Assembly (NCBI RefSeq): GCF_964355755.1
Contig: NC_092677.1
Coordinates: 3,353,001-3,417,000, forward strand
Source: Antedon mediterranea
Lineage: Eukaryota; Echinodermata; Crinoidea; Comatulida; Antedonidae
DNA length: 64,000 bases
Reading direction: 5' to 3'
Below, in pieces: positions 18,737 to 53,388 of the stretch. The position numbers and the translations under genes are program-made. The notes beneath the pieces are model-generated. The model saw only the letters and a list, made by a program, of their open reading frames with translations. It searched no databases and had not been told where the DNA came from. How positions within the stretch are numbered: the stretch's first letter is position 1; the number at the start of each line of letters is the position of its first letter.

Positions 18737-18787
18737 ATGTTGAAGAATTGCATCGGCCATGGATCATACACTTGGGTTCTACGATGA
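18737..18787 (+). promoter_or_regulatory. upstream ORF overlapping the C/EBP start codon
   Basis: An ATG 22 bases before the C/EBP ATG opens a 16-codon frame ending in TGA at 18785-18787, out of frame with and overlapping the main start. The uORF ATG has A at -3. The main ATG is in the stronger context GGCCATGG. Vertebrate C/EBP alpha and beta mRNAs have a short out-of-frame uORF that sets the choice of start site and so the ratio of long to truncated protein. A similar role here is inferred. Confidence 0.5.
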
Positions 18788-19547
18788 AAACGATTTCTGT
18801 CAAAAATTGCAATTTAGCACCGAAGAAGAATACTTTGATGGTTTTGGAGGACTAAACGGAGTAGAAGACTCCATTGACTTATCAGCATTTCTTTCTCAAA
18901 GTCAAAACGAACCAATAAATTCAGTGTCAAATACTGGTAATACTGGTGGACAAGAGGGCTTCCCAACATTGGGAAACCTAGATCATTTATTTGGAGCACA
19001 ACCTCAAATTCAGAACAATTATTCATTATTACCAGCTGTGAAACAAGAACCAGCAGAAATCAACTACGGTGAGTGCGAATCAACCGTTACTAGTCCAACA
19101 ATTCAATCCGATATGCCGCAACAAACATTTTTCACGAACACTTTACCGCAGCCCTCGACGGGGATGATGCCAATGGCAAACGATACAACTCAATCGCCAT
19201 ATTCTACGCCGGTTTCATCGCCAACAAGCACGACAATGTCTTACAAATCTTCTCCAGCCAGCAAATCTTTAAACAAATCGAGCTCGGGGAAGAGACAAAG
19301 ACCGGTTCCCGAGAAGGGTACGCAAGAATATGTGGCGAAGAGACAGAAAAATAATGTTGCGGTACGGAAGAGCAGAGAAAAGAGCAAGGCGAAGGCGATG
19401 CAACTGCAAGACACGGTCAGTCAGCTGACCGACGAAAATGACCGTTTGAACAAAAAAGTTGAACTACTTACCAAAGAGTTGTCTGTGTTAAAGCAACTGT
19501 TTACGAATGTTGGGAAACATGTTCCGCAAGAACTTCAAAACTGTTGA
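18759..19547 (+). CDS. C/EBP-family bZIP transcription factor, intronless
   Basis: 262 residues in one uninterrupted frame; vertebrate CEBP genes are also intronless. The C-terminal bZIP spans about 189-250. The basic region contains KNNVAVRKSREKSK (197-210), the C/EBP signature, where N199, V202, S205 and R206 fall at the DNA-contact positions. A regular zipper follows with L216, L223, L230, L237 and L244. EDSIDLSAFL at 36-45 resembles the conserved activation box of vertebrate C/EBPs. VKQEP at 94-98 matches the conserved regulatory, potentially sumoylated motif. The middle (100-185) is rich in Ser, Thr, Pro and Gln. It should bind TTGCGCAA-type sites as a dimer in the nucleus. Family assignment is firm. 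The paralogue class is not; position next to SPIDR suggests kinship with CEBPD, but the invertebrate gene probably predates the split. Confidence 0.93.
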   Translation: MDHTLGFYDENDFCQKLQFSTEEEYFDGFGGLNGVEDSIDLSAFLSQSQNEPINSVSNTGNTGGQEGFPTLGNLDHLFGAQPQIQNNYSLLPAVKQEPAEINYGECESTVTSPTIQSDMPQQTFFTNTLPQPSTGMMPMANDTTQSPYSTPVSSPTSTTMSYKSSPASKSLNKSSSGKRQRPVPEKGTQEYVAKRQKNNVAVRKSREKSKAKAMQLQDTVSQLTDENDRLNKKVELLTKELSVLKQLFTNVGKHVPQELQNC

Positions 19548-22295
19548 ACGGTCTCTTTTAACAAACAATTGATAACGAAGAAGCCGCTCCGGCAAAATGG
19601 GAGGCATCAACATAAGAACCAAAACTTGGGGACACTTTTTAAGTGATTTACCAAACAGAAGAACCTTTAAAACTGTCGAAAGGTTGTCTAAGCATCAGAT
19701 TGTCTGCCGTCGAGTATGGAGCAGTATCGCTAGCATTCCAGTACGACTTATGAACCAACCAGGAAAATTGGAATAAACTAAAAAAAAAAGGATTGTTTTC
19801 GTGAACTAAACACAGATTGTTGTACTGTAGTTGTACTGAATATAATTGTATTTTTGCAGTTTTACTTAATAGAATAGAAAGATGGTTTCCTTATAAGTTA
19901 TTGTATTACTTTTTCAGTTTTGTGTTCATTTTGATATTGTATTGTACTTAGGCTAGTAGCCTAATTAAAAATTGTTAAACAACATACAAAATAACTGTAG
20001 TGCTAAATATTTAAATAAAATAATAATTTTGTTGAAACCATTACTAATAATACTATGTACAGTAGCAAGTTAAAAAGTTCAAAATACAATGAATAAAAAA
20101 AAAATGAATGTATAATTAATTGAAACTACATTTTTAAAGAAACAAAAAACCATTTGCCTTGTATGTAGTGGTGTGTTGGGTACGATAAAAACATTTTTAA
20201 AAAAAATTGCAATATTATTGATAAATCCATCGTATAAGAAATATAAAAAACATGCAATTGTATTTGCACTTGTGGATATTTTTAAAGTTGTTTAAGGCAT
20301 GCCGCGTAGCATGACATATTTTTATAATGACGCTGCTCACATATGTTTTTAATGCAGTGAAGCCGCCAAACTAGAGACGAGACTGCGTACATATGTTTCC
20401 AAGCAGTTAATGAGTACTCCTGTAGATAGTATAGTATTAAATGATCAGGCTTTACTATGTTGATTAGAGAGCAATTATGGCGATGATATAAATATTAAAA
20501 ACAAATAAAATTTAAATTTTATTGCATTTTCCAGATCATATATGTTACAAAGTTTAGTGATATGAAATAAAAATTCACTATTTTATGATAATCAGTTGCT
20601 TTTTGAGTTTGTTTTAAATACTGTTTGACTCTTATAATTTAGAAATCATTGCGAGATTTAAAGAATTCTACCGACTTTTTGACAGAAATAAGTGGCAATA
20701 TTTCACCGATAGATACGCTCACGGACAAAACTTAGTAAAACGACTATCCGTAGTGTATATTATAATATTCTATCGTTGTAACTGCTAGATATCTCACAAC
20801 GACCGACACCAATGAAACGACTCAAACTGATCACAACAGACTCAAACTGATCACAACAGACTCAAACTGATCACAACAGACTCAAAGTTGAAACGACGAT
20901 CTTAACATCAGACTATTTACTGATAGATACGCCCAAGGACAAACATTTTGGTGAAACAACCAACACTGATCACACGCGGACAAAAACGTTAACTTCGATC
21001 AGTATTTCATTAGACGACAAACTACTCACTATGTATACTATTTTACATATAAAATTCAACCATTAACCGATAGATATGCACACAAACGAACATTTTCATA
21101 AACATCATTTGATACCATTAAAAATTATATTATATTTGACACCAATATGAAACAATATTTTGCCGTATCAAGGCATAAAAATAATTATTAATATTAACAT
21201 GAGAGATGCTGGTACAGTGAATAGCTGATGCAATGTGGATAATATATTTCAGTAGACTACAGACACAATACAGTACTATGATAGTTATACTGTAATATAT
21301 AAACAAATTGAACATACTAATATAGCTATTGTAGCAGCAATATAAAAACACCTAGACAAGTAATAGGTATGTTAATTATACTGTAATAACCAAAACGTTA
21401 ACAAAATGACATACATAAGTTAATTTATAAAAATAAATACTAAAAAAAATATTAATCTTTTATCTATCACTGACAAAACAATCATGCTAAAATATTGGTG
21501 CCAAAATATTGGTAATAAATTTACAATACACAATTTTACTATACAGTGGTAATAAAATATAGTATAATAATATATAATCGATATTTCAATTTACTGTACA
21601 ATTTACATAATAATTAAATGTATGAATATTGAATTTTTGAATTGGTGGGTGTAGGGTGGTTTTCGATTAAGTGGTGGAGGAAACAAATCGGTTTGGAGCA
21701 ATTTGCAAATGCATACGTTAGTTATTATAATTGTGGCATGTGGGTGGAGTGGTGAACTTACAATAGGACGAACCATAATGAAATAAAAGCGTGAAGAATG
21801 TGTTTTTTAATACTAAATGGTGGATAATTATCCATTCGATAAAATTGTGGATATTTCCGCTGGCATTGGCAAAAACTGAATTTAAATTTATTCACATATG
21901 TAACCAGTTATTTCTTCCCCAATGATAGGACAACCACGGTTGTATTCAGGGACTAAAACCGCTAAAAATAAAAACTGTACACCATCATATAATAACTAAT
22001 TTAACTACACGCAATAATTGTAAATTAATACTAATTTATTTTACATATTTAATTAATAATATTGTCTCCAGAATTTGGCAGTCTAAAAGGACCTGGTTCT
22101 GGTAGACCAAATCTAAGGTGGGTATCCTCTCCCCCTCAATAATGAAATAAAAATACAGATATTTCTGTTTTATTTAATAAAACATTGAATCATCGCTAAA
22201 TCTAACCGCAGACAATTTTATTACCCGGAAACCGATTTTTATTAATTGAATCAAAAATCAGTAATCAGAATATCAAACTTGCTTCAACTCTACTC
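19548..22295. other. 3' flank of C/EBP, AT-rich
   Basis: AATAAA at 20014-20019 and again at 20092-20097 are candidate polyadenylation signals about 470 and 550 bases after the stop. Beyond the small repeats at 20700-21100 nothing coding was found. Confidence 0.5.
20700..21100 (+). repeat. three diverged GATAGATACGC...GGACAAAC repeats plus a 20-bp tandem
   Basis: Blocks starting near 20707, 20921 and 21066 share GATAGATAYGC followed by CAAGGACAAAC-like sequence, spaced about 214 and 145 bases. Between the first two, CTCAAACTGATCACAACAGA is repeated exactly three times at 20821-20880. This looks like an old tandem array of a roughly 150-200 bp unit. Confidence 0.5.
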
Positions 22296-22441
22296 TAAAG
22301 CTCACTCTTCACTATCAAACTTTATGTGACACAAAAATGTGATGTGCGCATATATGGACATGATGTCATATCACTACCATATTTGGGCATATCACTACCA
22401 TATTTGAGCACATCACACTAGTTTGATAGTGTACACAGAGC
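22296..22441 (+). mobile_element. MITE family A, copy 5
   Basis: TAAAGCTCACTCTTCACTAT at the left and GATAGTGTACACAGAGC at the right, with two CATATTTGGGCA/TTTGAGCA repeats inside. Confidence 0.8.
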
Positions 22442-23084
22442 AATAACTCTATTCACTTATTGATTTTGTAGGAAAACACCTCTGATCATCAGCAGATACA
22501 ATCATTCGATATCCAGTATGATATTTCACACAGGTGTTAATACATCCATGTTTAAATTACTGGGGTTCCTAGAATAGGGTAACATATTTGACACTTAAAC
22601 TTAAGGTGGAATATTAAATTCTGATGTTAAACTTTGCAGGAGTAGAAGAGAGAGGGAGCTGTGTGTTTGTGTGGGGGTTGTGTGTCGATAAGAGGGGTAA
22701 TTAAAAAGGAAGGGGCTAGCAGTATGGAATAGTTTTCAAGTATGGTAATAGTTAAAAATAGATATGAAAATTCAAATGAATATTTTTAGAAAGTACGTCG
22801 GGAAAAAACTGGTATTTCCAAAAACCAACTATCTATGAAAATCAACCCATCTATTTTTGTCGATTATTATATACACAAGTAGGGATTTTCCAGAATAACT
22901 ATTGACTATGAAAACACAACATACAATACAGGTGTATTTCAAACTCAATTTTGAAAATAGGGATTTCCAAGATGGTAACTCAGCATAACACATAGGCCTA
23001 CATGATGGTAAACTTAAATATCAATTTATTTGTGTTTAATTTACTTTAAATACAATATTTGGAATTATTGCAAATTGTTTTAAT
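22442..23084. other. non-coding stretch
   Basis: Simple AT-rich DNA with a GT-rich patch near 22660-22690. No gene or clear element was seen. Confidence 0.4.
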
Positions 23085-23458
23085 ATACATACTGCATATT
23101 CAGGGGGACAACTATATTCAGGGGGACAACTATATTCAGGGAGACAACTATATTCAGGGAGACAACTATATTCAGGGAGACAACTATATTCAGGGAGACA
23201 ACTATATTCAGGGGGACAACTATATTCAGGGGGACAACTATATTCAGGGGGACAACTATATTCAGGGGGACAACTATATTCAGGGGGACAACTATATTCA
23301 GGGGACATTTTCTCAAGAACAAACAAGAGTAAATATATGTTCAACACTACAGCCATACCTATATGCAGGGACACCCTGTACCTCTATTAAAGGGACATTT
23401 AGCTGGGTCTGGTTGGTGTCCCCTTAATAATAAGAGTACTACTGTATTACTTATTTAG
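23085..23458. repeat. 18-bp minisatellite in a pogo-like element
   Basis: About 11-12 tandem copies of an 18-bp unit (ATTCAGGGGGACAACTAT, with a GGGAGACAAC variant in a central block) cover 23097-23311. The tract runs into GGGACACCCTGTACCTCTATTAAAGGGACATTTAGC-like sequence and ends GTACTACTGTA near 23448, the right-end pattern of the CAGTAGAACC elements. Because 18 is divisible by three, both strands stay open (IQGDNY on plus), but this is not coding evidence. Confidence 0.8.
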
Positions 23459-23509
23459 ATTTTCTCAATTTCCAGCAGTGAAAATATGTAGGCATGGCAT
23501 ATTAAAAGG

Positions 23510-23605
23510 AAACAGCCAACCCATATAGTGGACACCCCTATCAAGGGGACACTTTGCAGGATCCTGAAGGTGTCAATTAATAGAGGTTTTATTGTACAGT
23601 ATTAC
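23510..23605. repeat. GGGACAC pogo-like repeat fragment
   Basis: GGACACCCCTATCAAGGGGACACTTT, then GTGTCAATTAATAGAGGTTTTATTGTA, gives the arms and right end typical of the CAGTAGAACC family. The left end is not defined. Confidence 0.55.
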
Positions 23606-25530: not shown

Positions 25531-25534
25531 TATA

Positions 25535-26118: not shown

Positions 26119-26153
26119 ACTGTACACTATTTGTTATTGTACAACACACAGTG

Positions 26154-27048: not shown

Positions 27049-27322
27049 TAAGCTCTGTCTACTCTATAGTATCAAATTAGTTTGACAAAAAAAGTGTGAT
27101 GTGTCCAAATATGGTAGTGATATGCCTAAATATGGTAGTGATATGCCTAAATATGGTAGTGATATGCCTAAATATGGTAGTGATATGCCTAAATATGGTA
27201 GTGATATGCCTAAATATGGTAGTAGTACTATAACATCATGATGTCAATATATGGGCACATCACATGTTTTTGTCACATCATGGAGTAAAGACATAAAGTT
27301 TGCTAGTGTGGACAGAGCTTTA
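27049..27322 (-). mobile_element. MITE family A, copy 6, with 21-bp internal expansion
   Basis: TAAGCTCTGTCTACTCTATA at the left and GTGTGGACAGAGCTTTA at the right. Inside, CCTAAATATGGTAGTGATATG is repeated in tandem five to six times (27124-27222), where other copies have one or two. The family's inner motif has therefore expanded into a small tandem array. Confidence 0.85.
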
Positions 27323-27679: not shown

Positions 27680-27960
27680 CAGTAGACCCCTTCTTTGGTA
27701 CATCCCTAATAGGGAACACCCCTAATAGGGAACACCCCTAATAGGGAACACCTCTAATAGGGAACACCCCTAATAGGGAACACCCCTAATAGGGAACACC
27801 CCTAATAGGGAACACCCCTAATAGGGAACACCCCTAATAGGGAACACCCCTAATAGGGAACACCCCTAATAGGGAACACCCCTATTAAGGGAACACTCCT
27901 ATTAAGGGAACACCCCTATTAACCGCCAGGCATTCAATAAAGGAAGTACCCCTCACCGCC
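27680..27960. repeat. 18-bp minisatellite behind a CAGTAGACCCC end
   Basis: CAGTAGACCCCTTCTTTGG resembles the pogo-like left terminus. It is followed by about 12 tandem copies of an 18-bp unit (ACCCCTAATAGGGAACAC) at 27703-27915. The last copies change to CCCCTATTAAGGGAACAC. No matching right terminus was found. The unit contains the inverted repeat CCCTAATAGGG. Confidence 0.75.
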
Positions 27961-28836: not shown

Positions 28837-31800
28837 ACTAGAACCCCCATTAGGAGGACACATTTAAACCCCCATTAGGGGGACACCTTTAGGATCTAAC
28901 AAAGTGTCCCCTTAATAAACCCCCATTAGGGGGACACCTTTAGGATCTAACAAAGTGTTCCCTTAATAAACCCCCATTAGGGGGACACATTTAGGATCTA
29001 ACAAAGTGTCCCCTTAATAAACCCCCATTAGGGGGACACCTTTAGGATCTAACAAAGTGTCCCCTTAATAAACCCCCATTAGGGGGACACATTTAGGATC
29101 TAACAAAGTGTCCCCTTAATAAACCCCCATTAGGGGGACACATTTAGGATCTAACAAAGTGTCTCCTTAATAAACCCCCATTAGGGGGACACCTTTAGGA
29201 TCTAACAAAGTGTCCCCTTAATAAACCCCCATTAGGGGGACACATTTAGGATCTAACAAAGTGTCCCCTTAATAAACCCCCATTAGGGGGACACATTTAG
29301 GACAGTGTCCCCTTAATAAACCCCCATTAGGGGGACACATTTAGGATCTAACAAAGTGTCCCCTTAATAAACCCCCATTAGGGGGACACATTTAGGATCT
29401 AACAAAGTGTCTCCTTAATAAACCCCCATTAGGGGGACACATTTAGGATCTAACAAAGTGTCCCCTTAATAAACCCCCATTAGGGGGACACATTTAGGAT
29501 CTAACAAAGTGTCTCCTTAATAAACCCCCATTAGGGGGACACATTTAGGATCTAACAAAGTGTCTCCTTAATAAACCCCCATTAGGGGGACACATTTAGG
29601 ATCTAACAAAGTGTCTCCTTAATAAACCCCCATTAGGGGGACACATTTAGGATCTAACAAAGTGTCCCCTTAATAAACCCCCATTAGGGGGACACATTTA
29701 GGATCTAACAAAGTGTCCCCTTAATAAACCCCCATTAGGGGGACACATTTAGGATCTAACAAAGTGTCCCCTTAATAAACCTCCAGTAGGGGGACACATT
29801 TAGGATCTAACAAAGTGTCTCCTTAATAAACCCCCATTAGGGGGACACATTTAGGATCTAACAAAGTGTCCCATTAATAAACCCCCATTAGGGGGACACA
29901 TTTAGGATCTAACAAAGTGTCTCCTTAATAAACCCCCATTAGGGGGACACATTTAGGATCTAACAAAGTGTCCCCTTAATAAACCCCCATTAGGGGGACA
30001 CATTTAGGATCTAACAAAGTGTCCCCTTAATAAACCCCCATTAGGGGGACACATTTAGGATCTAACAAAGTGTCTCCTTAATAAACCCCCATTAGGGGGA
30101 CACATTTAGGATCTAACAAAGTGTCTCCTTAATAAACCCCCATTAGGGGGACACATTTAGGATCTAACAAAGTGTCTCCTTAATAAACCCCCATTAGGGG
30201 GACACATTTAGGATCTAACAAAGTGTCTCCTTAATAAACCCCCATTAGGGGGACACATTTAGGATCTAACAAAGTGTCTCCTTAATAAACCCCCATTAGG
30301 GGGACACATTTAGGATCTAACAAAGTGTCCCCTTAATAAACCCCCATTAGGGGGACACATTTAGGATCTAACAAAGTGTCCCATTAATAAACCCCCATTA
30401 GGGGGACACATTTAGGATCTAACAAAGTGTCCCCTTAATAAACCCCCATTAGGGGACACATTTAGGATCTAACAAAGTGTCCCCTTAATAAACCCCCATT
30501 AGGGGGACACATTTAGGATCTAACAAAGTGTCCCATTAATAAACCCCCATTAGGGGGACACATTTAGGATCTAACAAAGTGTCTCCTTAATAAACCCCCA
30601 TTAGGGGGACACATTTAGGATCTAACAAAGTGTCTCCTTAATAAACCCCCATTAGGGGGACACATTTAGGATCTAACAAAGTGTCTCCTTAATAAACCCC
30701 CATTAGGGGGACACATTTAGGATCTAACAAAGTGTCTCCTTAATAAACCCCCATTAGGGGGACACATTTAGGATCTAACAAAGTGTCTCCTTAACACTTT
30801 GACTGCCAAACACGAAGATCTTCGTTTTTGGAAACACAACGCTTGACTGCCAAACACGAAGATCTTCGTTTTTCGCGTTTTTTTACGAAATCCGGTAGAT
30901 AGGTTAATTATTGGTATATCATATAAATATGGACACTATATTCGGTCTGGACCGTGATTATTTTACTTTTTGAAAGTAACTAATCTGGTTACGAACGATT
31001 GTCAAAATGGTACCTGTCGAAATAACATACACCGCGCATCACAGTAGCGCGTACAGCGATGGTTTTTGGCGCATTGTGTATCGGTCGCGCGCTAGCTATG
31101 CCGCCGAAGCATTACAAAGGTTTATGTGGATTGGAATGTTTGTTTGTTATCTGAATGAAAAATAATGGATGAATTTTCAATATGAAGTCTTTAATTTTAT
31201 TATTGTATGTATACCCTAATTGTTATGGTGCTTCACTGTAAGTGGCCGAGTTCACGCAACAAATTTGTTTAGAAATGGTATGAATATTATCATCATTTTA
31301 CTAGCTAGGCTAGTAGTACTAGGCTATAGCCTAGGCCTAGTCGTAAAACGGTTCTGGACCAACTTTAGGCATAGTTAACTAGGCCTGGTGTCTTTACTAT
31401 GTGGATTTTGGCGAAACATTGATGTAAGATTTATGATTTATAAAATGTAATACATTTTTCGATATTGATAACTTGTTTTTATAGGCCTACCGGTGCCGTG
31501 TAAGTAATTTTTTGTTGTTTGTTGATCTCACCGGGCGATATTTTCATATTGCGATGTCTTGCACAAAATAGCGTATATCTCGACTTTCTTGCGCAAAACT
31601 ACGAAAAACTCAAAAAGTGGGTTACTTTCATTTTACTATTACGATTTACATATTGCGATTTGAAAATCGTTCTTGGTACCATTGTAAAGCTAAAATCTTT
31701 TTGATTATTTTAGTCTAAATTAAATGTAAATCAGATCAAATACATAGTTTCAATCAGCTTTGATAAAAACATCGAATTGGGCTATAAACGCTGGCGGTGG

Positions 31801-34800
31801 CAGTTTCTAACTGGAAAAACCTCTGGCAGTCAAAGTGTTAATAAACCCCCATTAGGGGGACACATTTAGGATCTAACAAAGTGTCCCCTTAATAAACCCC
31901 CATTAGGGGGACACATTTAGGATCTAACAAAGTGTCCCATTAATAAACCCCCATTAGGGGGACACATTTAGGATCTAACAAAGTGTCCCCTTAATAAACC
32001 CCCATTAGGGGGACACATTTAGGATCTAACAAAGTGTCCCCTTAATAAACCCCCATTAGGGGGACACATTTAGGATCTAACAAAGTGTCCCATTAATAAA
32101 CCCCCATTAGGGGGACACATTTAGGATCTAACAAAGTGTCTCCTTAATAAACCCCCATTAGGAAGACACATTTAGGATCTAACAAAGTGTCTCCTTAATA
32201 AACCCCCATTAGGGGGACACATTTAGGATCTAACAAAGTGTCTCCTTAATAAACCCCCATTAGGGGGACACATTTAGGATCTAACAAAGTGTCCCCTTAA
32301 TAAACCCCCATTAGGGGGACACATTTAGGATCTAACAAAGTGTCCCATTAATAAACCCCCATTAGGGGGACACATTTAGGATCTAACAAAGTGTCCCCTT
32401 AATAAACCCCCATTAGGGGGACACATTTAGGATCTAACAAAGTGTCTCCTTAATAAACCCCCATTAGGGGGACACATTTAGGATCTAACAAAGTGTCCCA
32501 TTAATAAACCCCCATTAGGGGGACACATTTAGGATCTAACAAAGTGTCTCCTTAATAAACCCCCATTAGGGAGACACATTTAGGATCTAACAAAGTGTCT
32601 CCTTAATAAACCCCCATTAGGGGGACACATTTAGGATCTAACAAAGTGTCCCCTTAATAAACCCCCATTAGGGGGACACATTTAGGATCTAACAAAGTGT
32701 CCCATTAATAAACCTCCATTAGGGGGACACATTTAGGATCTAACAAAGTGTCCCATTAATAAACCCCCATTAGGGGGACACATTTAGGATCTAACAAAGT
32801 GTCCCCTAAATAAACCCCCATTAGGGGGACACATTTAGGATCTAACAAAGTGTCCCCTTAATAAACCCCCATTAGGGGGACACATTTAGGATCTAACAAA
32901 GTGTCCCATTAATAAACCCCCATTAGGGGGACACATTTAGGATCTAACAAAGTGTCTCCTTAATAAACCCCCATTAGGGGGACACATTTAGGATCTAACA
33001 AAGTGTCCCCTTAATAAACAACCATTAGGGGGACACATTTAGGATCTAACAAAGTGTCTCCTTAATAAACCCCCATTAGGGGGACACATTTAGGATCTAA
33101 CAAAGTGTCTCCTTAATAAACCCCCATTAGGGGGACACATTTAGGATCTAACAAAGTGTCCCCTTAATAAACCCCCATTAGGGGGACACATTTAGGATCT
33201 AACAAAGTGTCTCCTTAATAAACCCCCATTAGGGGGACACATTTAGGATCTAACAAAGTGTCCCATTAATAAACCCCCATTAGAGGGACACATTTAGGAT
33301 CTAACAAAGTGTCTCCTTAATAAACCCCCATTAGGGGGACACATTTAGGATCTAACAAAGTGTCCCATTAATAAACCCCCATTAGGGGGACACATTTAGG
33401 ATCTAACAAAGTGTCTCCTTAATAAACCTCCAGTAGGGGGACACATTTAGGATCTAACAAAGTGTCCCCTTAATAAACCCCCATTAGGGGGACACATTTA
33501 GGATCTAACAAAGTGTCTCCTTAATAAACCTCCATTAGGGGGACACATTTAGGATCTAACAAAGTGTCCCCTTAATAAACCCCCATTAGGGGGACACATT
33601 TAGGATCTAACAAAGTGTCTCCTTAATAAACCCCCATTAGGGGGACACATTTAGGATCTAACAAAGTGTCCCATTAATAAACCCCCATTAGGGGGACACA
33701 TTTAGGATCTAACAAAGTGTCTCCTTAATAAACCCCATTAGGGGGACACATTTAGGATCTAACAAAGTGTCCCATTAATAAACCCCCCATTAGGGGGACA
33801 CATTTAGGATCTAACAAAGTGTCCCCTTAATAAACCTCCAGTAGGGGGACACATTTAGGATCTAACAAAGTGTCTCCTTAATAAACCCCCATTAGGGGGA
33901 CACATTTAGGATCTAACAAAGTGTCCCATTAATAAACCCCCATTAGGGGGACACATTTAGGATCTAACAAAGTGTCTCCTTAATAAACCCCCATTAGGGG
34001 GACACATTTAGGATCTAACAAAGTGTCTCCTTAATAAACCCCCATTAGGGGGACACATTTAGGATCTAACAAAGTGTCCCATTAATAAACCCCCATTAGG
34101 GGGACACATTTAGGATCTAACAAAGTGTCCCCTTAATAAACCCCCATTAGGGTGTACACATTTAGGATCTAACAAAGTGTCTCCTTAATAAACCCCCATT
34201 AGGGGGACACATTTAGGATCTAACAAAGTGTCCCCTTAATAAACCCCCATTAGGGGGACACATTTAGGATCTAACAAAGTGTCCCCTTAATAAACCCCCA
34301 TTAGGGGGACACATTTAGGATCTAACAAAGTGTCTCCTTAATAAACCCCCATTAGGGGGACACATTTAGGATCTAACAAAGTGTCCCCTTAATAAACCCC
34401 CATTAGGGGGACACCTTTAGGATCTAACAAAGTGTCCCCTTAATAAACCCCCATTAGGGGGACACCTTTAGGATCTAACAAAGTGTCCCCTTAATAAACC
34501 CCCATTAGGGGGACACATTTAGGATCTAACAAAGTGTCCCCTTAATAAACCCCCATTAGGGGGACACATTTAGGATCTAACAAAGTGTCCCCTTAATAAA
34601 CCCCCATTAGGGGGACACATTTAGGATCTAACAAAGTGTCCCCTTAATAAACCCCCATTAGGGGGACACATTTAGGATCTAACAAAGTGTCCCCTTAATA
34701 AACCCCCATTAGGGGGACACATTTAGGATCTAACAAAGTGTCCCCTTAATAAACCCCCATTAGGGGGACACATTTAGGATCTAAAAAGTGTCTCCTTAAT

Positions 34801-35508
34801 AAACCTCCAGTAGGGGGACACCTTTAGGATTTAGCAAAGTGTCTCCTTAATAAACCCCTATTAGGGGGACACCTTTAGGACAGTGTCCCCTTAATAAACC
34901 CCCATTAGGGGGACACCTTTAGGATCTAACAAAGTGTCTCCTTAATAAACCCCCATTAGGGGGACACCTTTAGGACAGTGTCCCCTTAATAAACCCCCAT
35001 TAGGGGGACACCTTTAGGACAGTGTCCCCTTAATAAACCCCCATTAGGGGGACACATTTAGGATCTAACAAAGTGTCTCCTTAATAAACCCCCATTAGGG
35101 GGACACATTTAGGATCTAACAAAGTGTCTCCTTAATAAACCCCTATTAGGGGGACACCTTTAGGACAGTGTCCCCTTAATAAACCCCCATTAGGGGGACA
35201 CCTTTAGGACAGTGTCCCCTTAATAAACCCCCATTAGGGGGACACATTTAGGATCTAACAAAGTGTCTCCTTAATAAACCCCCATTAAGGGGACACCTTT
35301 AGGACAGTGTCCCCTTAATAAACCCCCATTAGGGGGACACCTTTAGGACAGTGTCCCCTTAATAAACCCCCATTAGGGGGACACCTTTAGGACAGTGTCC
35401 CCTTAATAAACCCCCATTAGGGGGACACCTTTAGGACAGTGTCCCCTTAATAAACCCCCATTAGGGGGACACCTTTAGGACAGTGTCCCCTTAATAGATG
35501 TTCTACTG
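28837..35508 (+). repeat. 6.7 kb minisatellite of a 51-bp unit inside pogo-like ends
   Basis: The left boundary is TA then ACTAGAACCCCCATTAGG at 28837. The right boundary is GTCCCCTTAATAGATGTTCT with ACTG then TA at 35509. These ends match the CAGTAGAACC ... GGTTCTACTG elements elsewhere in the window. Between them lie about 110 tandem units of 51 bp. Each has CCCCCATTAGGGGG (a 5-bp stem hairpin), ACACATTTAGGATCTAAC and GTGTCCCCTTAATAA. GGGGACAC and GTGTCCCC within a unit are also inverted. Variants include GTGTCTCC, GTGTCCCATT, ACACCTTT and a 44-bp short form lacking TCTAACA. ACACCTTT units dominate both edges and the short form clusters near 34870-35500. A piggyBac-type element interrupts it at 30795-31837. 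Confidence 0.93.
30795..31837. mobile_element. 1043-bp non-autonomous piggyBac-type element
   Basis: It begins CACTTTGACTGCCA and ends with the exact complement TGGCAGTCAAAGTG, flanked on both sides by TTAA (30791-30794, 31838-31841). Removing the element and one TTAA restores an intact satellite unit, GTGTCTCCTTAATAAACC. TTAA targeting and this terminus fit the piggyBac superfamily. GACTGCCAAACACGAAGATC occurs twice near the left end, and CGAAGATCTTCG is itself a palindrome. The interior has no transposase-like frame; the 61-codon frame at 31519 starts at TTG and is unremarkable. Confidence 0.9.
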
Positions 35509-38328: not shown

Positions 38329-38329
38329 A

Positions 38330-40342: not shown

Positions 40343-40494
40343 TAAAGCTCTGTCTACACTATTAAACTAAAATGTGATGTTCCCAAATATGGTAGTGATA
40401 TGCCCAAATATGGTAGTGATATGACATCATCATGTCCATATATGGGCACATCACATTTTTTGTCACATAAAGTTTGATAGTGTAGACAGCTTTT
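40343..40494 (-). mobile_element. MITE family A, copy 12
   Basis: TAAAGCTCTGTCTACACTAT at the left; GATAGTGTAGACAGCTTTT at the right. Two AAATATGGTAGTGATATG repeats lie inside. Confidence 0.85.
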
Positions 40495-42657: not shown

Positions 42658-43466
42658 GGCCCTGTTTCTGCTGCCAACTAAATACCGTATATTATACGGT
42701 ATTTTTTGAATACCGTATATATACGGTATATTTTTGGCAGCAGAAACTGCACTCATAAAAAATATACCGTATTTTGTATACCGTATTTTCCCCACAAAAT
42801 TTGTGGATAAAATACGGTATTTACAAATTTATACCGTATCTTTTGTACCCGTTTCTGCTGCCAATAAAAAATACCGTATTTTTTTTTTACATGACAAAAG
42901 GTCAACATTCGTGTTTTTATTTTCTGTCGCTGTCAGCTGCTTTACACACGTGTATAGATATATTCGGCGAAAATGTGGAGCGAAGACGTCACAGTTTTAC
43001 TAAATAAATGTGTGTGGGGAAGCTTAAATGTCTGGCCAACTAAAAGGTAATAAAAGGGACAACCACATTTATAAAGACATTTCTAAAAAAATAAAGCAGG
43101 AGTATGGAATAGACTTGTCTCCAAAGCAAGTAAACTGAAAGCTGAAGAGCCTGCGAAAGCAGTACAACATTGCAAAATACAATAACTCGGGGAGGGAACG
43201 AATTATTGTCCCCATTACGATGTTTTCTGTGCTCTCACAACATCTCTATCACTAGGGCTATGCTGTTGAATGTGAGACGTAAAACTTCCTTTATTGCGAC
43301 TTTTAATTATCGATCAAATAAATGAATGGCAATTTGGGTAAAAAAGATGAAATTTAACACGACCACCCAAGAAGTATTGTTAGCAGAAACGGGGTACTAA
43401 AAAATACGGTATAAAAAATACCGTATTTTATACCGTATTTTGACCAGTTGCAGCAGAAACAGGCCC
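42658..43466 (+). mobile_element. 809-bp Harbinger-like element with ATACCGTAT hairpins
   Basis: The left end GGCCCTGTTTCTGCTGCC and right end GCAGCAGAAACAGGCCC are inverted, flanked by TAT on both sides (42655-42657, 43467-43469). Both ends are dense in ATACCGTAT/ATACGGTAT, and CTGTTTCTGCTGCC also recurs internally inverted (near 42735 and 42845). A 3-bp target duplication and GGGCC-type ends fit PIF/Harbinger. The interior carries a broken Myb/SANT-like gene, the usual second gene of that superfamily. Confidence 0.7.
42973..43255 (+). pseudogene. broken Myb/SANT-like DNA-binding protein of a Harbinger element
   Basis: The frame from the ATG at 42973 begins MWSEDVTVLLNKCV, a typical Myb/SANT helix start, and stops after 24 residues. 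A different frame then continues with HIYKDISKKIKQEYG, SPKQVN, an in-frame TGA, then KLKSLRKQYNIAKYNNSG and further residues until TAG at 43253. The pattern of K, Y and W positions matches the trihelix/MADF-like proteins that accompany Harbinger transposases. One frameshift and one stop show it is dead. Assignment is from motif recognition. Confidence 0.6.
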
Positions 43467-44078: not shown

Positions 44079-44511
44079 TAAGCTTTGTCCACACTAACAA
44101 ACTAGTTTGACAAAAAAAGTGCGATGTGCCCAAATATGGTAGTAATACCAGGGAACATTTTCGCCAGTGTAGCATAGCAAAAAGCTATACAAAACAACCT
44201 TATTGCTACACATTTCTAAAATTGTGTAGCAAAAAATACAATACAAAACTATGTTTCTCGACTTAAAAATCAGTTTGAATATTGCTAAACAAAATTTGTT
44301 AATGAAATTTTCCCCTGAATACGCCCAAATATGGTAGTGATATGCCCAAATATGATAGTGATATGACATCATCATATCCAATGAAAACCAGTTTAAACTG
44401 TTTGGGCTACCCTGGGTAAAGAAATTTAATAATAACAATATATTAATTATGTCCATTAATATATATACATTTTTTTTTCACATAACGTTTGATAGTGTGG
44501 ACAGAGCTTTA
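44079..44511 (-). mobile_element. MITE family A, copy 14, interrupted
   Basis: TAAGCTTTGTCCACACTAAC at the left; GATAGTGTGGACAGAGCTTTA at the right. It is 433 bp because it contains a nested 169-bp insertion (44149-44317) and a further unexplained segment at about 44379-44455. Confidence 0.8.
44149..44317. mobile_element. 169-bp element nested in a family A MITE
   Basis: Starts CAGGGAACATTTTC and ends GAAATTTTCCCCTG, imperfect inverted ends. AATAC is duplicated on both sides (44144-44148, 44318-44322). Removing it rejoins GGTAGTAATAC to GCCCAAATATGG, which restores the family A interior. The CAGGG-type end recalls hAT elements, but the 5-base duplication does not, so the superfamily is open. 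Confidence 0.65.
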
Positions 44512-45276: not shown

Positions 45277-45314
45277 CTTTTGATAAATGAAATTTAAAAA
45301 TCTGTGTGGCTTAC

Positions 45315-48300
45315 CTAAATTTTAATTTCTTCCAAAATAAACTGATTTGGATGTTCCGAAGTATTTCTAACAATTGCACTGATTGGTCCAAGCTGTTTAC
45401 CCATGATGCTTTGCATGTCAAATCCTTGTGACCTTACCTCTGGTGTGATTGGTGGTAAGATCTTTTCAATAGACGACTGTAATAACTATAAAAAAAGAAT
45501 ATTTATTTTTGAACTAAAATATAAAAAATATCGATTCACTATTAAAAACAACCAAAAAAAAAAAGAACACTTTGAATTTGCTAAGAATAAGTTATGTAAT
45601 GTTAAATCATTTTGTCGTTGCAGCGACATTTCGACATGTTTCCTCTTTCGATTTCCTAACAAATTTTTGGTGGAGAAGCATTTAAATGCAGTAGGTCTTA
45701 GGTCTTTGAAAGCTCCATATTGTAATTAGCTGTACAACAACCTACCTGAACTTTGACCTGGGCTTGTTTTACTGCTGCACATCGTATATACACTTCTAAG
45801 TACATCTTTAAATCAGTCGAGGTGATGTTCATTTTACATGTTTGGCAATAAAACTGATCATTTCTGTAAGATATGATATTCTATAGCATTAAACTGTACA
45901 GCATATACTGTGCAATTGCATAGAATAGTAGATTCAGTAATAAAGCTCTGTCTACATTATGAAAATAATTTGACAAAAAAGTGTGATGAGCCAAAATATG
46001 GTAGTGGTATGCCCAAATATGATAGTGATATGATATCATTATGTCCATATATGGGCATGATAGTGTAAACAGAGCTTTACACTAATATATTACTATATTT
46101 CGGTTAGAAAATTGGAATAATCCCACACAAAATACACCGTTAATTCTAGTTAATAACTGTACAGTATAAATTTCATTTTAATTCTTACATTGATGAAGAT
46201 GAGGCACATAGTTTATCAGATCCACACTGACCACACACTGACCACTGGTAAGCACTGGACTCGTCAGCTCCAATAACTTCACCTAAAACAGAAATAATTG
46301 CATAACTTGATAGAATTAGTTACAGTGGTAACCCTCCTTCGGGACTTGCATATTCAGGAGACACCACCTATATATACAGGAGACACTTTTATGTGACATA
46401 AACATGAGGAAGTTAATGTTTTAACACTACGATCAACCCGACACTTCTTTAAAAAAAAAAACACATTTTTTTTTGGGTTGAGAGGTAAAGCATATTGCTT
46501 ATAAGCCTTTCAAAGATATTATATTGTTCCCATCCCATCCTTCCCACCTCTACCCCTTCCCACCTCTACCCCTTCCCATGGTGCATAATCAACCTCAGTT
46601 ACCTTGTATCAATACAAGCTCAAACTGATTAGTATCAGCATGTAATGGTTGTAGATGTACATCAACGTTCTCATATTCTTCATACACACATGGATTGTCA
46701 ACCCTCACAATCCTGCTATACTTGTCTGCATAAAGTTCACCTAATAAATCAATTATTAATATTATATATAATAGATAAATATATATATAATTATAAAATA
46801 ATGCCTGAAAATATTATAAAATATATATACTATGATACGAGTTATGTGTTTTATTTAATTTACTCTTTGTAACATAAACATAATGTTAATAATTTATACA
46901 GGGTACCCTTCCTGAACAAAATATGCCAGTTATTCTGTCTACACTATCAAACTGTATGTGACAACAAATGTGACTATTTCATATAACTACTATATTTGGG
47001 CATATCAGTAGCATATATTTGTTGGGCATATCACACTTATTTATTTTATTTATGTTTATAAGGATGGTGATGATAATGATACAGATTACAATGAAAATTA
47101 TGATAATGATTAGAACATTGATGAAGAAGTGATGACATCTGTGAAAATGATAATGATGATGTAATAATGAGATCACAATCACACTTACCATTTTCTAAAA
47201 ACACATCTTTAAACATAAACACATGGCCTATCAGATTAGATTCCACAACACATGATGCATCCAATAACAGACACCTGTATGCAAAACAGTTAATGTCGGC
47301 GGTATCACACTCTGACCTGTGACCTTTGCCCAGTGAAAGGTCAGTAAGGTAAATTCTTTTCAAAACATGTTTGTCCGTTGAAGTACATGTGCTGTACAAC
47401 ACTTTTGAATAAAGGCTTATTCTTGGTGATAAACTCTGTAAGAAAGAAAATATTCAAATATGTTTTTTAACAGAAATCAAACTACGTTAGAAACTATTAA
47501 AGATGTAGGCCTACTTCCCCCCAAAAAACATGAAGATCAATAAAATCAGACTTTAAATAGGTCATTTTGAAGTTTCAATAAAGTTATTCACTTCTGTAAA
47601 AAAAAAACCAACAAAAAATAATTTCATTTAATTTGAACTAAAAATCATTGTCTGACAAGAATTTTTTGATTAAAATTTTTTTTGATTAATACATTTTTTT
47701 CCAATCCAAAGTTTATCAAAGTGAATAACTATTATGTGACATCAAAATAGCATATTCAACAACAAGGAACACACTCTCCCTTTAATGTTTAAACACATAT
47801 TTCCGCTCAATCGTTTCAAGAAAGTGTCCCCTGAATAGGAGTGTCCAAATTATTGATAATTTTTCAATTTTGAAATCTACACCTCCTCCATCTCAACCCC
47901 ACCCCAAAATATCAGCCTCATCATGCATGCATCCATAAAACGTTGCCAATACTTACACTGACTGTGTTTAGATTGCATTCTGTTGAACTTCTATATATGA
48001 CATGTTGTTTATTACTCTTGGTGATGATGTCACTGTCTAGTTTCAACACATAACAGAATGAAGGTGCTGGCATGATATGAGACGCTTGTTCACTCTGTGT
48101 AAATATATTTATAACAAAATAAAAAATATAATTTAAAAAACACTTCATTAATATGTTGCACAGCCAAAAAAAACCAAAGTTATATGTAACCTTACATCTG
48201 ATTGGCTGTTAAAACTTGCTGGGAGAATTTTGTCACTTGGAGGCCACATGGAATCAAGCATACTAAACAATCTAGAAGACCTAAATAAAAAACAAACAAA

Positions 48301-51300
48301 TTGTAATGAAAAAATATGTATCATGTGCTATACATGGTACGAATCAATTGTGGTCTTTAACATTATGTATAACATCAGGTTCATGAACTTTTATGAACCC
48401 CAAAAGACAGAAAAAAAAGGCACCAATGACCTTAGTTGACCCAAGGCTATCAAACAACAGACTTGAACCAGGAGTACTACAACAATAATATTCCTCACCT
48501 TGAACGTTTTGTTCTTTGTAGTACTTTTGCTCCCTTGAATATCAACGTCTCACCCTCAGCATTCAAATATTCCTTCCATGAATCACTGTGATGACAGTCG
48601 TCTGGCAAATACATCTCACAAAATACTCCTCTGATATCTTGAAGTAACATAAACCACTGTATATTAAATGTACAATCAGGTCTAAAAGATCAAAGACAGT
48701 TTCAACTTATCACTATCATATTTGGGCAGATCACTACCATATATGGGCAGATCACACTTTCTTTTGTGAAACTAGTTTGATAGTGTAGACAGAGCTTTAG
48801 GCTTTTATCAGGGGTAATAAAGGCTCGATTTATTTATTATCTTTGAATGGTGAGAGGTTATGTGGTGGTTTGCGTGTGTTTGTTTTTTTCTATACTTGCA
48901 GCAGGACTACTCAAAAAGTTATTGCCCATTTTAAAGTATGGTTTCATAGCTGTATGGAAACATGCCATTAAATATTCATATGCCTAGGTGGAGGTTTGCA
49001 CTCTCTGAGAGCCTTTCTAGTTTAGATATACAACACTTTAAAAACATTTCTTATTTCTTTTTTTTTTAAAAATGGGACAAAAATTGATTTAATTTGAAAC
49101 TTCTTACTTGTCATTTGTTGGTGAATTATAACAACATACTCTCTGTACTGTTGCCCTAATACACATCCCTTTTGTGCTATGTCCACTACTGTCCGCAATA
49201 CTGTCCAGTATCGAGTCCGAGGCTTGGTCATCCTCATTAAGGGATTTAACTGGTTGAATGGTAACCTCTTCCAGAACAGGTCTTACTGCCGATTTGTCAT
49301 CAGAAGGCCATGTGTCAAAGGTCATCTTTCTTCTTGTAGTCTATACAATATTATTTTTAAAATGGTTTATACAACTGATGTAGTTTTAAGTTTAGTAAAA
49401 ATATATTTGTTTGACTTTTCCTCTTTGATTTCAGTATATTAAACTTTGTCTAAACTATCAAATGTGATGTGCCCATATATGGACATGTTGATGTCATATC
49501 ACTACCATAGCATATTACTATGTACCATATTTAGACACATCACATTTTTTTTAATGAAACTAGTTTGATAGTGTAGACGGAGCTTTAGGCTTTTATCAAA
49601 ATGCCTGTTTATCCTACATGTTTGCCATTATTCATAATAATAACAAACACACTATAAGGTAATCTGTTCTTCTAGGACATTATTAAGGGGACACCCCTAT
49701 TAAAGGAACACTTTTTGTGAAATGAATGAAGGAAAAATATTTTTGACAAACCACTATTCAGGGGACACCTCTAATAAAGGAACACTTTCTTATGAATATC
49801 TTTTTCAACACTGACAAAACAATATTCAGTAGACACCTCTATTAAGTAGACACCTCTATTAAGTAGACACCTCTATTAAGTAGACACCTCTATTAAGGTG
49901 ACACCTCTATTAAGGTGATAAGGTGACACTTTGATGGGTCCTGAAGGGTTCCCCTTAATAGGGGGCCTACTGTAATTTGTTTACTACTATTACTTACTTG
50001 TGTTGAGGTGCTTGGTACATTGGTAGAGTCTTGCCCCACAAGTTGACAGTAATGAGTGCATAGCAGAATGGGTTCACTGTGCGTTGGCAAGTTCAACCGC
50101 TGCCTACAATATGAAACAATATTAGGGTGAATAAGAGAAGGGGAAACATCAACATTTAACAGTTGGGCTCACAACATAATTATAACATAATAATGTATAA
50201 ATTTAGATTGGCATTTGTATCTACTGTGTAATAACATTATTTTGCAGCAGATTTTAGAGAGAATCTCCTCCTCCACAACCAACCCTCTCCTCCACCCCCT
50301 AAAAAATAATATGATTTTAAAAAGTTTATAAATCACATTTTAGTTAGGAATGTTTACACATATTATTTCTTTCTTATACATATGCCAATGATCTCCCTCG
50401 TTTCTCCCATAACCCACTCTATGCGTTCCTTTAAAATATGCAGAAGTTCCCCTTGAATATTCCCCCATTATTTCATTTTTTCATTTCTTTATTCGACAAC
50501 AAGCGGTCCAGGGATTGCGACAGCAACAGAGCACCATAACACATTTGTGTCCGCAATCCCTGTAACATACAACTTAATACAAGTTAAAAATGAATATAAA
50601 GTATACAGAATATATAAAAAATTTAATTAATTTGTATTACTGTGTTACACCATTTAAAATACTCCTATACAATTAAAATAAATTTAGCGTTGATCAAGCA
50701 GATATTTTTTCAATTTCGACAGGAAATTTTTCAAAGGAAGAGTAACTGCTTGATCTTTGATTATGGAGGGTAGTGATGACCATATAACAGGAAAATTGTT
50801 GATAGACGAATATTTTAAAGTATCGGTACGTGCAAAAGGGTGGACAAATGTGAGTAATTCAGGATGGCGTTGATTGATATGGATATTGTTATTTACAGTA
50901 CTACAAAAAGTTACATTATAAAAACAACGAAATATAAAGGAAATTAAAATCATTAAACGTCTATCACGTAAGGATAACCAACCCAAAGTTATTAAACGTT
51001 CGTCGTATGATATAGGTCCGCAGTGGGGTCCCAGAATACGTCTAGAGGCCCGTCGCTGAACCTGTTCGAGGCGTTTTATGTGTCCTCCATTTCTGGGGCC
51101 CCACGCCGGCAAACCATACTCTAGAATAGGTAGCACCAAAGTTTTGTATCTTACCATGGTGGGTATATTGTGACGATGGAGCCTTCAGCTATGCATAACT
51201 GTCTAGCAGTTGAGGTTGAGAATAACACATGTAGGACTGCATGGTCACTGTCACTTGTATCTATGCATTCACTGACGTATATTCCACGGCTAATGTTTAT

Positions 51301-53388
51301 CTTTTGTACACAAACCGTCAGAGCAGTGCCGCTGGCCTTAGCTTTGTCTGCAACATGGTGATTCCACATGGCTACTGAGGACCTCTCCCTAGAAATTAAC
51401 TTCTGTAACCTTTCAGCAAGACCACCTCTAATGGAACAAAAGCAACAAGAAGTCACTACTATAATCTTCTACTTTAAAATAAAGGCCTGTTCACACTGAG
51501 CAAAAAAACTCCCAATCAGTTCAAATTTATTTTATGAAAATTCTAATTTATTTTAATTTTGTTTCTCACCTTAGATATTTACTTTTCTTTTTGGCTGAAT
51601 CCAGTGGTTCAATTTCGTCGGTCTCTGTTTGAGGTGATTTTATTTGTTGCTTCATTAGGTTGATAAGGTTTGACCCTTTCTTTGACATCGCCGTTTTATT
51701 CTCTCCACTAGAGGTCACAGAACTTGAAGGCAAGGATGACGATATGGATCCTATGCTGTATGTTTCGGATACCTGTGTGGAAAAAAGTTATTATAAAACA
51801 TGCTGTCTTAAGCTTGGTTCCCACTAGGACACGACATAGTAACGTTTAAGTATTTTGACCAATCATGACACAATGGATATCTGAATTGTCTCTTGTTATT
51901 GGTCAACTTGCTTGGGTCTTACGTCCCTACGTTGCGTCCTGGTGGGAACCATACCTAACCTGCTTTTATGAAATGATTTTATAAAGAAAGTTTTATACAT
52001 ACTATACCTGTGGCGTGTTGCTAATTTGTTTAAATTCCTCAACTTCTTCACTAGCATCAGATTCCTCTGTAGATTCATAATCTGATATTAAAAGCTCAGA
52101 AGCCTAAACATAAACAAAATAATGTTAGCCATAATCAATGGAACATACAGATGCACAATAATAAATAAAAGTTAAGCATATGTCTATGAATATGGTAGTG
52201 ATATGCCCAAATATGGTAGTGATATGACATCATCATGTCCATATAGGATGTGAACATCACATTTTTTTTGTCACATAAAGTTTGATAGTGTAAACAGAGC
52301 TTTAGAATACACCAAAATTGGGTCAAAGACTAAAGTGGGGGTCAATATTACAAGTACCTGGGATGCCTGTGAACTTTGAACTTTGACCATAACAACTTGT
52401 TTAGGAGGTTGATCTTCACTGGAGATCTCATCATGACATGTGCTTCTAAATGACGTCTTTGGACGTTCAGGTGATTCAAACACTAGAGGGAGTGCATCTG
52501 CTGAGTCGCTGTCATCTTCACTTGAGCTCCAACTTATATCGACATCTTGTTGGTTCCCTATTCTTGCATTAGAAAGTAATTTACCTAAAGTTTTAAAGAT
52601 AATTTTGTTTAGAAACATGTCATGAAATAAAAAGCATTTATCATAAAATATTAAATAAGAGAACTTAAAAATTATTTAAGTAAACATAATATCAATTAAA
52701 CACCCACTTTTTAAACCTTTTTTACTGCCAACTGATTTCCGGGCAGAAGACCTTTGACCTTCAAGAATGATGTCCGGATCAAAACCATCTTGACAACGAT
52801 CCCAACTGTCATCGGCGGACAAACAATTCTGTTTACTGCGTAACTTGGTAACGCAATCAGATCTCTGCCAAACAAACAAAAAAGATCCAAAATGTTTATT
52901 AGTTTACGTTAGGCCGCCAGCCTTAATAAATAGGCCTACTACTCTAGGAGGCTGCCTACTTACTTTTCCAATTTACACATTTATAATTACAAACTTAACC
53001 TAGCTAGGCCTAGGTGGCCCTAGCCTAGCCAAGGCCTAGACTTATTACAAGCTAGGCCTAGTAGGCTATATATATATCATTCTAGACCATACCTAGCAGA
53101 AATAACCTACCTAAGTAACCTAGTAGCCTAGTTATTCTTAGCCTCTAGCTAGGCCTAGTCAGCTAGCCTGGATGACTTAGGCCTAGGTAGCCAAATCACC
53201 TGATAAAGGTGAACTCACACGCCTGGTGGTGGGTGTGAGCGAATACCGGTGTGAGCTGGCTAGCCTACGACTTTTGAGAGCAATATAATGGTTAATAAAC
53301 GACCACATTTCTTAATAAAATATGTAGCAAACCAAAATAAAATGCTTATTTTGTCATCAGATAATGTTAGCAGTACCTTACGCTTCAT
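45315..53388 (-). CDS. SPIDR: SPIDR, scaffold protein of homologous recombination
   Basis: Sixteen exons, all with GT-AG borders and matching phases: 53388-53377, 52864-52708, 52584-52358, 52103-52008, 51772-51570, 51427-51155, 50103-49998, 49340-49108, 48681-48499, 48280-48196, 48094-47957, 47435-47189, 46740-46603, 46282-46189, 45863-45746, 45476-45315. They give 823 residues; human SPIDR is about 915. Matching blocks include DISWSSSEDD, RGGLAERL...RERSSVAMW (232 on), IYPPWQRL, ATVQRV, FSMLDSMWPP, HVFMFKDV, GADESSAYQW (704-713) and the C-terminal LEEIKI. C716/C719 with C737/C740 form a zinc-ribbon-like pair. In human cells SPIDR links BLM helicase and RAD51 in the nucleus. Exon 1 codes only MKRK. 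The exon 2 donor GTGGGT is weak. The exon 8 start is uncertain by 12-15 bases because of a second in-frame AG. Introns hold many MITEs and a LINE. Confidence 0.9.
45941..46079 (-). mobile_element. MITE family A, copy 16
   Basis: TAAAGCTCTGTCTACATTAT at the left; GATAGTGTAAACAGAGCTTT at the right. It lies in SPIDR intron 14. Confidence 0.8.
46318..46460. repeat. degenerate GGGACAC/GGAGACAC repeat in SPIDR intron 13
   Basis: TACAGTGGTAACCCTCCTTC resembles CAGTAGAACC with changes. GGAGACACCACC and GGAGACACTTTTATG follow. It is a decayed member of the pogo-like group with no right end. Confidence 0.4.
46931..47040 (+). mobile_element. MITE family A, copy 17, truncated
   Basis: TATTCTGTCTACACTATCAA at the left, then GGGCATATCAGTAGCATAT and GGGCATATCACACTTA. 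The right terminus is missing. It lies in SPIDR intron 12. Confidence 0.65.
48711..48799 (+). mobile_element. MITE family A, copy 18, right half
   Basis: Inner CTACCATATATGGGCAGATC and an intact GATAGTGTAGACAGAGCTTT. It begins only 30 bases upstream of the SPIDR exon 9 border, so it lies in or next to the branch-point region of intron 8. Confidence 0.75.
49439..49587 (+). mobile_element. MITE family A, copy 19
   Basis: TTAAACTTTGTCTAAACTATC at the left; GATAGTGTAGACGGAGCTTT at the right. It lies in SPIDR intron 7. Confidence 0.8.
49661..49972. mobile_element. pogo-like MITE with 17-bp tandem, SPIDR intron 7
   Basis: GGGGACACCCCTATTAAAGG and GGGGACACCTCTAATAAAGG precede about four tandem copies of TAGACACCTCTATTAAG (17 bp). 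The end is GGTTCCCCTTAATAGGGGGCC then TACTG and TA. The right terminus is 25 bases from the donor of SPIDR exon 7 (intron starts 49997). It is another case of tandem growth inside this family. Confidence 0.65.
50470..51154 (-). mobile_element. 5'-truncated LINE, 3' part of reverse transcriptase and 3' UTR
   Basis: On the minus strand an open frame (51154 to 50684, 157 residues with the preceding ATG) reads VRYKTLVLPILEYGLPAWGP, then LEQVQRRASRRILG and LGWLSLRDRR. This is the region after the catalytic core of CR1/Jockey-like reverse transcriptases. It ends at a stop. The 3' UTR follows, with an inverted GGGATTGCG repeat pair and a GAATAAAGAAATGAAAAAAT tail near 50470-50495. The frame is intact, so insertion may be fairly recent. 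The 5' break coincides with the donor of SPIDR exon 6. Confidence 0.8.
51809..51957. mobile_element. MITE family B, copy 3
   Basis: TTAAGCTTGGTTCCCACTAG at the left; CGTTGCGTCCTGGTGGGAACC at the right. Central TTGACCAATCATGAC and TTATTGGTCAA are inverted. It lies in SPIDR intron 4. Confidence 0.75.
52172..52304 (-). mobile_element. MITE family A, copy 20, left end damaged
   Basis: AAATATGGTAGTGATATG repeats and an intact right end (GATAGTGTAAACAGAGCTTTA). The left terminus survives only as TAAGCATATGTCTATG. It lies in SPIDR intron 3. Confidence 0.7.

Follow-up and report, generated by a model that had tools for sequence, protein, structure and literature searches.

Tail-to-tail C/EBP and SPIDR genes in the crinoid Antedon mediterranea and the CEBPD-SPIDR neighbourhood of human

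The stretch of DNA analyzed here, referred to below as the window, comprises 64,000 nucleotides (zero N) from the genome of the crinoid Antedon mediterranea, whose chromosome-scale assembly (354.4 Mb in 18 contigs) was also searched as a whole. The window spans positions 3,353,001-3,417,000 of the chromosome denoted C8, other chromosomes being labelled in the same manner. It contains a C/EBP transcription factor gene on the plus strand and the DNA-repair gene SPIDR on the minus strand, with their 3' ends facing each other, and the subject of this analysis is the relationship of this pair to the human neighbours CEBPD and SPIDR. The main features, in window coordinates, are the following.

18,759-19,547, plus strand: C/EBP gene, single coding exon, ATG at 18,759 and stop ending at 19,547, 262 amino acids and a stop
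19,323-19,478, plus strand: bZIP of the C/EBP gene (Pfam bZIP_2, E 7.6e-14)
19,548-45,314, no strand: gap between C/EBP and SPIDR, 25,767 bp from stop to stop, holding a satellite and transposon debris
45,315-53,388, minus strand: SPIDR gene, 16-exon model, 823 amino acids and then a stop
53388-53377, 52864-52717, 52584-52358, 52103-52008, 51772-51570, 51427-51155, 50103-49998, 49340-49108, minus strand: SPIDR exons 1-8
48681-48499, 48280-48196, 48094-47957, 47435-47189, 46740-46603, 46282-46189, 45863-45746, 45485-45315, minus strand: SPIDR exons 9-16

The plus-strand gene encodes a C/EBP-type basic region (NNVAVRKSR) and a leucine zipper, and all 12 of its PDB matches with E under 0.001 are C/EBP structures (10 beta, 2 alpha). 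Its N-terminal part contains the motif SIDLSAFL, which we take to be the C/EBP activation box, and its last residue is a cysteine, presumably as in the classical members of the family. A genome search with bZIP_2, in which all 38 candidates were scored, gave 15 matches, and the 14 besides that of the window were read in 13 fetched regions. Only one of the 14 has a C/EBP basic region: a C/EBPgamma-like gene at 28.40 Mb of C8 (bZIP at 28,400,381-28,400,536), with an open frame of 135 codons that has almost nothing ahead of the bZIP and shows 56% identity to human CEBPG. This gene lies 25 Mb from the window C/EBP on the same chromosome, toward the opposite end, and the best PDB match of both is C/EBP beta. 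CEBPA and CEBPG adjoin each other in the human genome. A separate observation concerns C6, where one 586-residue open frame (29,171,726-29,173,048) carries two PAR/E4BP4-type bZIP domains and thus encodes an unusual double-bZIP protein.

A tree confined to the bZIP (12 rows, 64 columns) was built from the window gene, the C/EBPgamma-like gene and five further bZIPs of the genome, together with five C/EBPs of human. An earlier, sequence-only reading of this DNA had proposed a C/EBP tree as a check; the present one brings the C/EBPs together, the window gene among them (100/99), but with its 64 columns gives no placement within a subfamily, and it does not demonstrate that the window gene is orthologous to CEBPD. 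If the gene arose before duplication in vertebrates, all four classical CEBP genes would be expected to be its co-orthologues, a relationship for which 64 columns are too few. Most probably, the window C/EBP is the sole canonical-type member in an invertebrate without the vertebrate genome duplications.

On the opposite strand, the first Pfam scans yielded pieces of DUF4502 and DUF4503, around which exons were then built from the DNA sequence. In the resulting model, which spans 8.07 kb, all 15 introns (101-1,051 bp) are bounded by GT-AG and the frame is open throughout to the stop. The single modelled protein contains both domains near full length, DUF4502 with E 2.6e-22 (profile 26-376 of 376) and DUF4503 with E 8.6e-60 (profile 1-390 of 392), and Pfam, which does not draw on the human sequence used below, covers the product almost end to end. 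In a tblastn comparison with human SPIDR, from which plus-strand pieces were filtered out unread, 13 minus-strand pieces exceeded 20 bits, and 10 of them are collinear, running from 52.8 to 45.3 kb with human residues 36-905. The other three (at 46.3, 30.9 and 25.2 kb; E 6.5-8.6) are out of order, and an extension of SPIDR to 25 kb was rejected on this account. Residues 205-823 of the model are 27% identical to human SPIDR (E 2.9e-57), and the start codon is a predicted one, with a KRKRS match to the same human sequence as its sole support. DUF4503, the one of the two domains that was searched genome-wide, has three matches in the assembly, all at exons of the window gene, and a PDB search with the whole protein gave no match at E up to 1. 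A 166-codon open frame (50687-51184, minus strand) lies for the most part in intron 6, from the exon 6 donor site onward; it has no match in the Pfam scans of this region and resembles by eye the end of a reverse transcriptase of a long interspersed nuclear element.

The interval between the genes was scanned with Pfam from 19,548 to about 53,600 in three frames on both strands, with E limits of up to 0.1 in one scan and up to 1 in the others. No intact gene was detected in the gap by this six-frame search, which a gene of a family not represented in Pfam would escape, and Rfam gave no RNA match across the window. Two repeat features stand out:

28,865-35,480, no strand: array of about 131 copies of a 51-bp satellite unit with 84% matches, about 6.6 kb
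42,658-43,466, plus strand: inverted-repeat element with termini at 42,658-42,674 and 43,450-43,466 and a Myb/SANT-like fragment inside

The satellite alone takes up about a quarter of the gap; repeats resembling it also occur at 27700-27918 and, judged by eye, around 49.7-50.0 kb within a SPIDR intron. The Myb/SANT-like match (43,004-43,201, plus strand, E 2.1e-7) was considered as a possible intervening gene and rejected, since its two in-frame stops and the inverted termini around it indicate a transposon remnant. The other matches outside SPIDR were Extensin in the gap (E 0.5 and 2.5e-5), on low complexity and far under the family cut-off, and DUF4215 between the genes (E 0.44). A codon-usage scan trained on 3,338 codons, with C/EBP and a cadherin exon in the training set and SPIDR held out, has little power: its top ranks are the two training members, and the 45 rows listed include four from SPIDR (15.9-21.4) against eight from the gap (12.9-37.4), the three best of the latter being purine-rich low complexity. 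Copies of a 21-bp unit (GTGATATGCCCAAATATGGTA, or the reverse of it) stand at 27096-27223, 22367-22416, 40374-40423 and 44319-44365 and, by eye, at other loci of the genome, and the unit may belong to a small transposable element that is common there. The picture drawn earlier from sequence alone, of an intronless C/EBP on the plus strand and a complete SPIDR on the minus strand with no other supported gene between them, is thus borne out by the single-exon frame, by the 16-exon model with both domains and, within the reach of Pfam and Rfam, by the six-frame scan of the gap.

The species comparison is between two lineages, the Antedon genome on one side and the published human arrangement, as given in excerpts of the sources cited, on the other. 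Human KIAA0146 (SPIDR) occupies 48,336,094-48,811,028 and CEBPD 48,812,028-48,813,279, and the order at 8q11.21 is KIAA0146 (SPIDR), CEBPD, PRKDC, MCM4, UBE2V2 (PMC4741589). From these coordinates, the two genes are 1.0 kb apart and SPIDR is 475 kb long. Leukaemia breakpoints have been placed in SPIDR introns, at distances of 7.8 and 53 kb from the CEBPD 3' end, with a relapse breakpoint 257 kb downstream (PMC6884523); as SPIDR introns sit downstream of the CEBPD 3' end, in the direction of falling coordinates, CEBPD runs down the chromosome. The orientation of SPIDR follows from one CpG that is reported to lie 92,751 bp from the SPIDR transcription start site and 385,731 bp from that of CEBPD (PMC9388493). 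After a shift between assemblies by the CEBPD end, the SPIDR start site is placed 1.3 kb from the low-coordinate end of the gene, so that human SPIDR runs up the chromosome. The earlier description of CEBPD and SPIDR as tail-to-tail neighbours in human therefore agrees with published coordinates, breakpoints and CpG distances, and the genes are adjacent and convergent both here and in human. Among the titles and abstract openings listed, none mentions CEBPD-SPIDR linkage outside vertebrates, which we do not claim to be unpublished; a treatment of the vertebrate C/EBP genes makes no mention of SPIDR in the excerpt available (PMC7717901).

A wider view of the chromosome was obtained with ten markers, C/EBPgamma from the bZIP_2 scan and nine genes sought in targeted genome searches. 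They are genes that lie beside human CEBP genes or in duplicates of those regions, the 8q11.21 order being the published one given above; the human CEBP-bearing regions are 8q, 20q13, 16q12, 14q11 and 19q13. Besides the C/EBPgamma-like gene, the following were found on C8.

C8:7.17 Mb: Snail, 85% identical (150 of 1,762 candidates scored)
C8:10.86 Mb: MCM4 (other MCM loci not named)
C8:11.14 Mb: PEPD, best PDB match Xaa-Pro dipeptidase
C8:13.01 Mb: UBE2V
C8:24.77 Mb: TOX
C8:25.02 Mb: CHD6-9-like gene with two BRK domains, the second with CHD7 as best match and the first with BRG1

Neighbours of human CEBP genes and neighbours of their ohnologues therefore share C8, which carries seven of the nine markers located and seven of the ten sought but accounts for 8.06% of the assembly length. 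The corresponding binomial values, which serve as a guide only, are 6.9e-7 (located) and 2.1e-6 (sought), or 1.9e-5 if C/EBPgamma is left out (six of nine sought). The window looks like part of the ancestral C/EBP linkage group. Several observations were made alongside. The other AMP_N match, on C5, is XPNPEP3-like by eye. The three best Snail/Scratch-type zinc-finger matches among the 150 of 1,762 candidates that were scored are all on C8 (7174984, 22333141, 27963043). Matched exons of TOX and of the two-BRK CHD6-9-like gene fall within about 245 kb (C8:24,770,805-25,015,757); human TOX and CHD6-9 genes have four chromosomes in common, and these two genes may represent a second old neighbourhood.

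The broader setting of the genome was assessed with a homeodomain query, which gave 37 matches, 12 of them consecutive over 378 kb (C2:7,827,797-8,206,135), 11 on the plus strand and one, at 7.848 Mb, on the minus strand. Ten of the 12 were fetched and labelled by reading, presumably as Hox1, 2, 3, 4, 5, 6, 7, 8, 9/10 and 11/13a; the two left unread would be posterior genes. Because Hox7- and Hox8-like sequences are present and protostome Lox signatures are lacking, we read the complement, so labelled, as ambulacrarian, and so read it supports a deuterostome setting for the C/EBP-SPIDR pair.

Taken together, these data make it very probable that the C/EBP-SPIDR pair of Antedon and the human CEBPD-SPIDR neighbourhood are one and the same, inherited from a common deuterostome ancestor. 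SPIDR stands beside C/EBP in both lineages, as opposed to Snail, MCM4 and UBE2V, which in Antedon lie 3.8, 7.5 and 9.6 Mb from C/EBP; with the rest of the order on C8 scattered, the tail-to-tail pair is best read as a surviving adjacency, and we infer descent from a single ancestral arrangement rather than a second meeting of the two genes. The window C/EBP would sit on the linkage group that gave rise to the CEBP regions of human; the C/EBP locus would have been multiplied in vertebrates, with CEBPD as the copy that retained SPIDR. Retention would be due mostly to chance survival, unbroken, within a chromosome of shuffled gene order, although enhancers acting on C/EBP from within the gap or SPIDR may, with a smaller likelihood, have contributed.

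A number of points weigh against common descent. In the bZIP tree the other six C/EBPs group to the exclusion of the window gene (95/97), whose bZIP is closest to CEBPG among the human sequences (55% identity, compared with 50% for CEBPB and 41% for CEBPD). The gap measures 25.8 kb here versus 1.0 kb in human, and the comparison covers only two lineages. The markers were taken from the human map without being fixed beforehand and picked in rounds, partly after the first matches on C8 (MCM4, UBE2V and TOX were chosen when Snail and the CHD-like gene had already been placed there), and they are not independent. Among them, PRKDC was located on C1 and ARFGEF on C11, and SULF (SULF1/2) was unmatched in the genome search, an outcome that does not show its absence. 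PRKDC, which follows CEBPD in the human order (PMC4741589), was accordingly rejected as a part of the old block. The proposal, made from sequence alone, of a very old block at the ancestral C/EBP locus is supported by the tail-to-tail order common with human and by the seven of nine located markers on C8, but the shared block consists of two genes only.

A mechanism compatible with common descent, and a possible one even if we would not expect it, is that selection holds the pair together: C/EBP enhancers in the gap or within SPIDR would make breaks harmful, and SPIDR would be the bystander of a genomic regulatory block. The pair is indeed adjacent and other neighbours are scattered, and regulatory blocks that include bystander genes are well established (PMC2745767). 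Two leukaemia patients had IGH joined to breakpoints within SPIDR introns, and these cases were scored by the authors as CEBPD-IGH fusions, so that CEBPD may be within reach of regulatory DNA brought into SPIDR (PMC6884523). Given these breakpoints, enhancer action from SPIDR on CEBPD is plausible in human, although excerpts of the literature on CEBPD, SPIDR and enhancers do not mention a CEBPD enhancer in SPIDR. The Antedon locus itself speaks the other way, with SPIDR spanning 8.07 kb as compared with 475 kb in human, its introns reaching 1,051 bp, and one satellite filling about a quarter of the gap; short introns and satellite provide no positive support here for enhancer retention. The fuller version of this idea can be entertained only tentatively, as slightly less likely again: C/EBP-SPIDR would date back as a regulatory block at least to the deuterostome ancestor, with elements in the gap or SPIDR driving C/EBP, CEBPD would have directly inherited the position of the single pre-duplication C/EBP, and the other three classical CEBP copies would have lost SPIDR.

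It is improbable, in our estimate, that the two genes became adjacent on two separate occasions by chance, having stayed on the same ancient linkage group and been brought together independently, in this lineage and in vertebrates, by shuffling within the chromosome. Gene order in conserved linkage units is reported to be largely scrambled between amphioxus and other animals (PMC7269912), and Snail, MCM4 and UBE2V lie megabases apart here; moreover, shuffled chromosomes agree in some neighbour pairs by chance, and this pair was selected because it was noticed. A rough calculation for a linkage group of about 1,500 assumed genes, with a single SPIDR and the four classical CEBP genes of human, nevertheless puts the probability that a convergent CEBP lies on the 3' side of SPIDR at about 0.0013, or at about 0.005 over the four recognised neighbour pairs of the window by the same rough arithmetic. 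Marginally less credible still is an exchange of roles, with the window gene as the C/EBPgamma orthologue and the gene at 28.4 Mb as the classical one, for although the window bZIP is closest to human CEBPG and the tree gives no subfamily placement, the window protein has a long N-terminus, a putative C/EBP-type activation motif and a terminal cysteine like that of classical members, whereas the 135-codon frame has almost no N-terminus and is 56% identical to CEBPG.

The pair is flanked by other genes in the window, the Pfam scan to the left of C/EBP being of the minus strand outside 14.4-18.7 kb.

12225-13337, minus strand: exon of a cadherin-domain gene (Cadherin E 7.9e-11), the left neighbour found, divergent from C/EBP
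56857-58225, minus strand: pieces of a DUS2-type dihydrouridine synthase, the right neighbour found
61878-62345, plus strand: acyltransferase-like open frame, weak (Acyltransferase E 0.016, below cut-off), LPCAT-like by eye

A PDB search with the acyltransferase-like frame gave no match.

Inherited from the deuterostome ancestor, as we prefer to see it, the pair is best read as a further case of a known phenomenon, deep microsynteny on an ancestral linkage group. Like genomic regulatory blocks and ancient microsyntenic pairs, it joins a transcription factor gene to an unrelated neighbour over a deep divergence, but it is known from gene order alone and in two genomes. As in the ancestral linkage groups of chordates and bilaterians, one chromosome, C8, unites genes whose human relatives are dispersed among the CEBP-bearing regions, but the evidence here comes from ten markers that were not fixed beforehand. 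The likeness to human 8q11.21 lies in the adjacent, tail-to-tail SPIDR and C/EBP and in the presence of MCM4 and UBE2V on the same chromosome (PMC4741589). The differences lie in the dimensions (a gap of 25.8 kb and a SPIDR of 8 kb here, as against 1.0 kb and 475 kb) and in the dispersal of the others, with PRKDC on a different chromosome and MCM4 and UBE2V 7.5 and 9.6 Mb away. If a two-gene neighbourhood did predate the vertebrate duplications, it would mark which human CEBP locus kept the ancestral surroundings, and the Antedon pair would offer an outgroup locus for understanding how regulation was partitioned within the CEBP family. The pair also lends itself, as a small case, to testing whether enhancer constraint or chance keeps a transcription factor linked to a DNA-repair gene with which it has no relation, in an interval to which the leukaemia breakpoints in SPIDR lend medical relevance.

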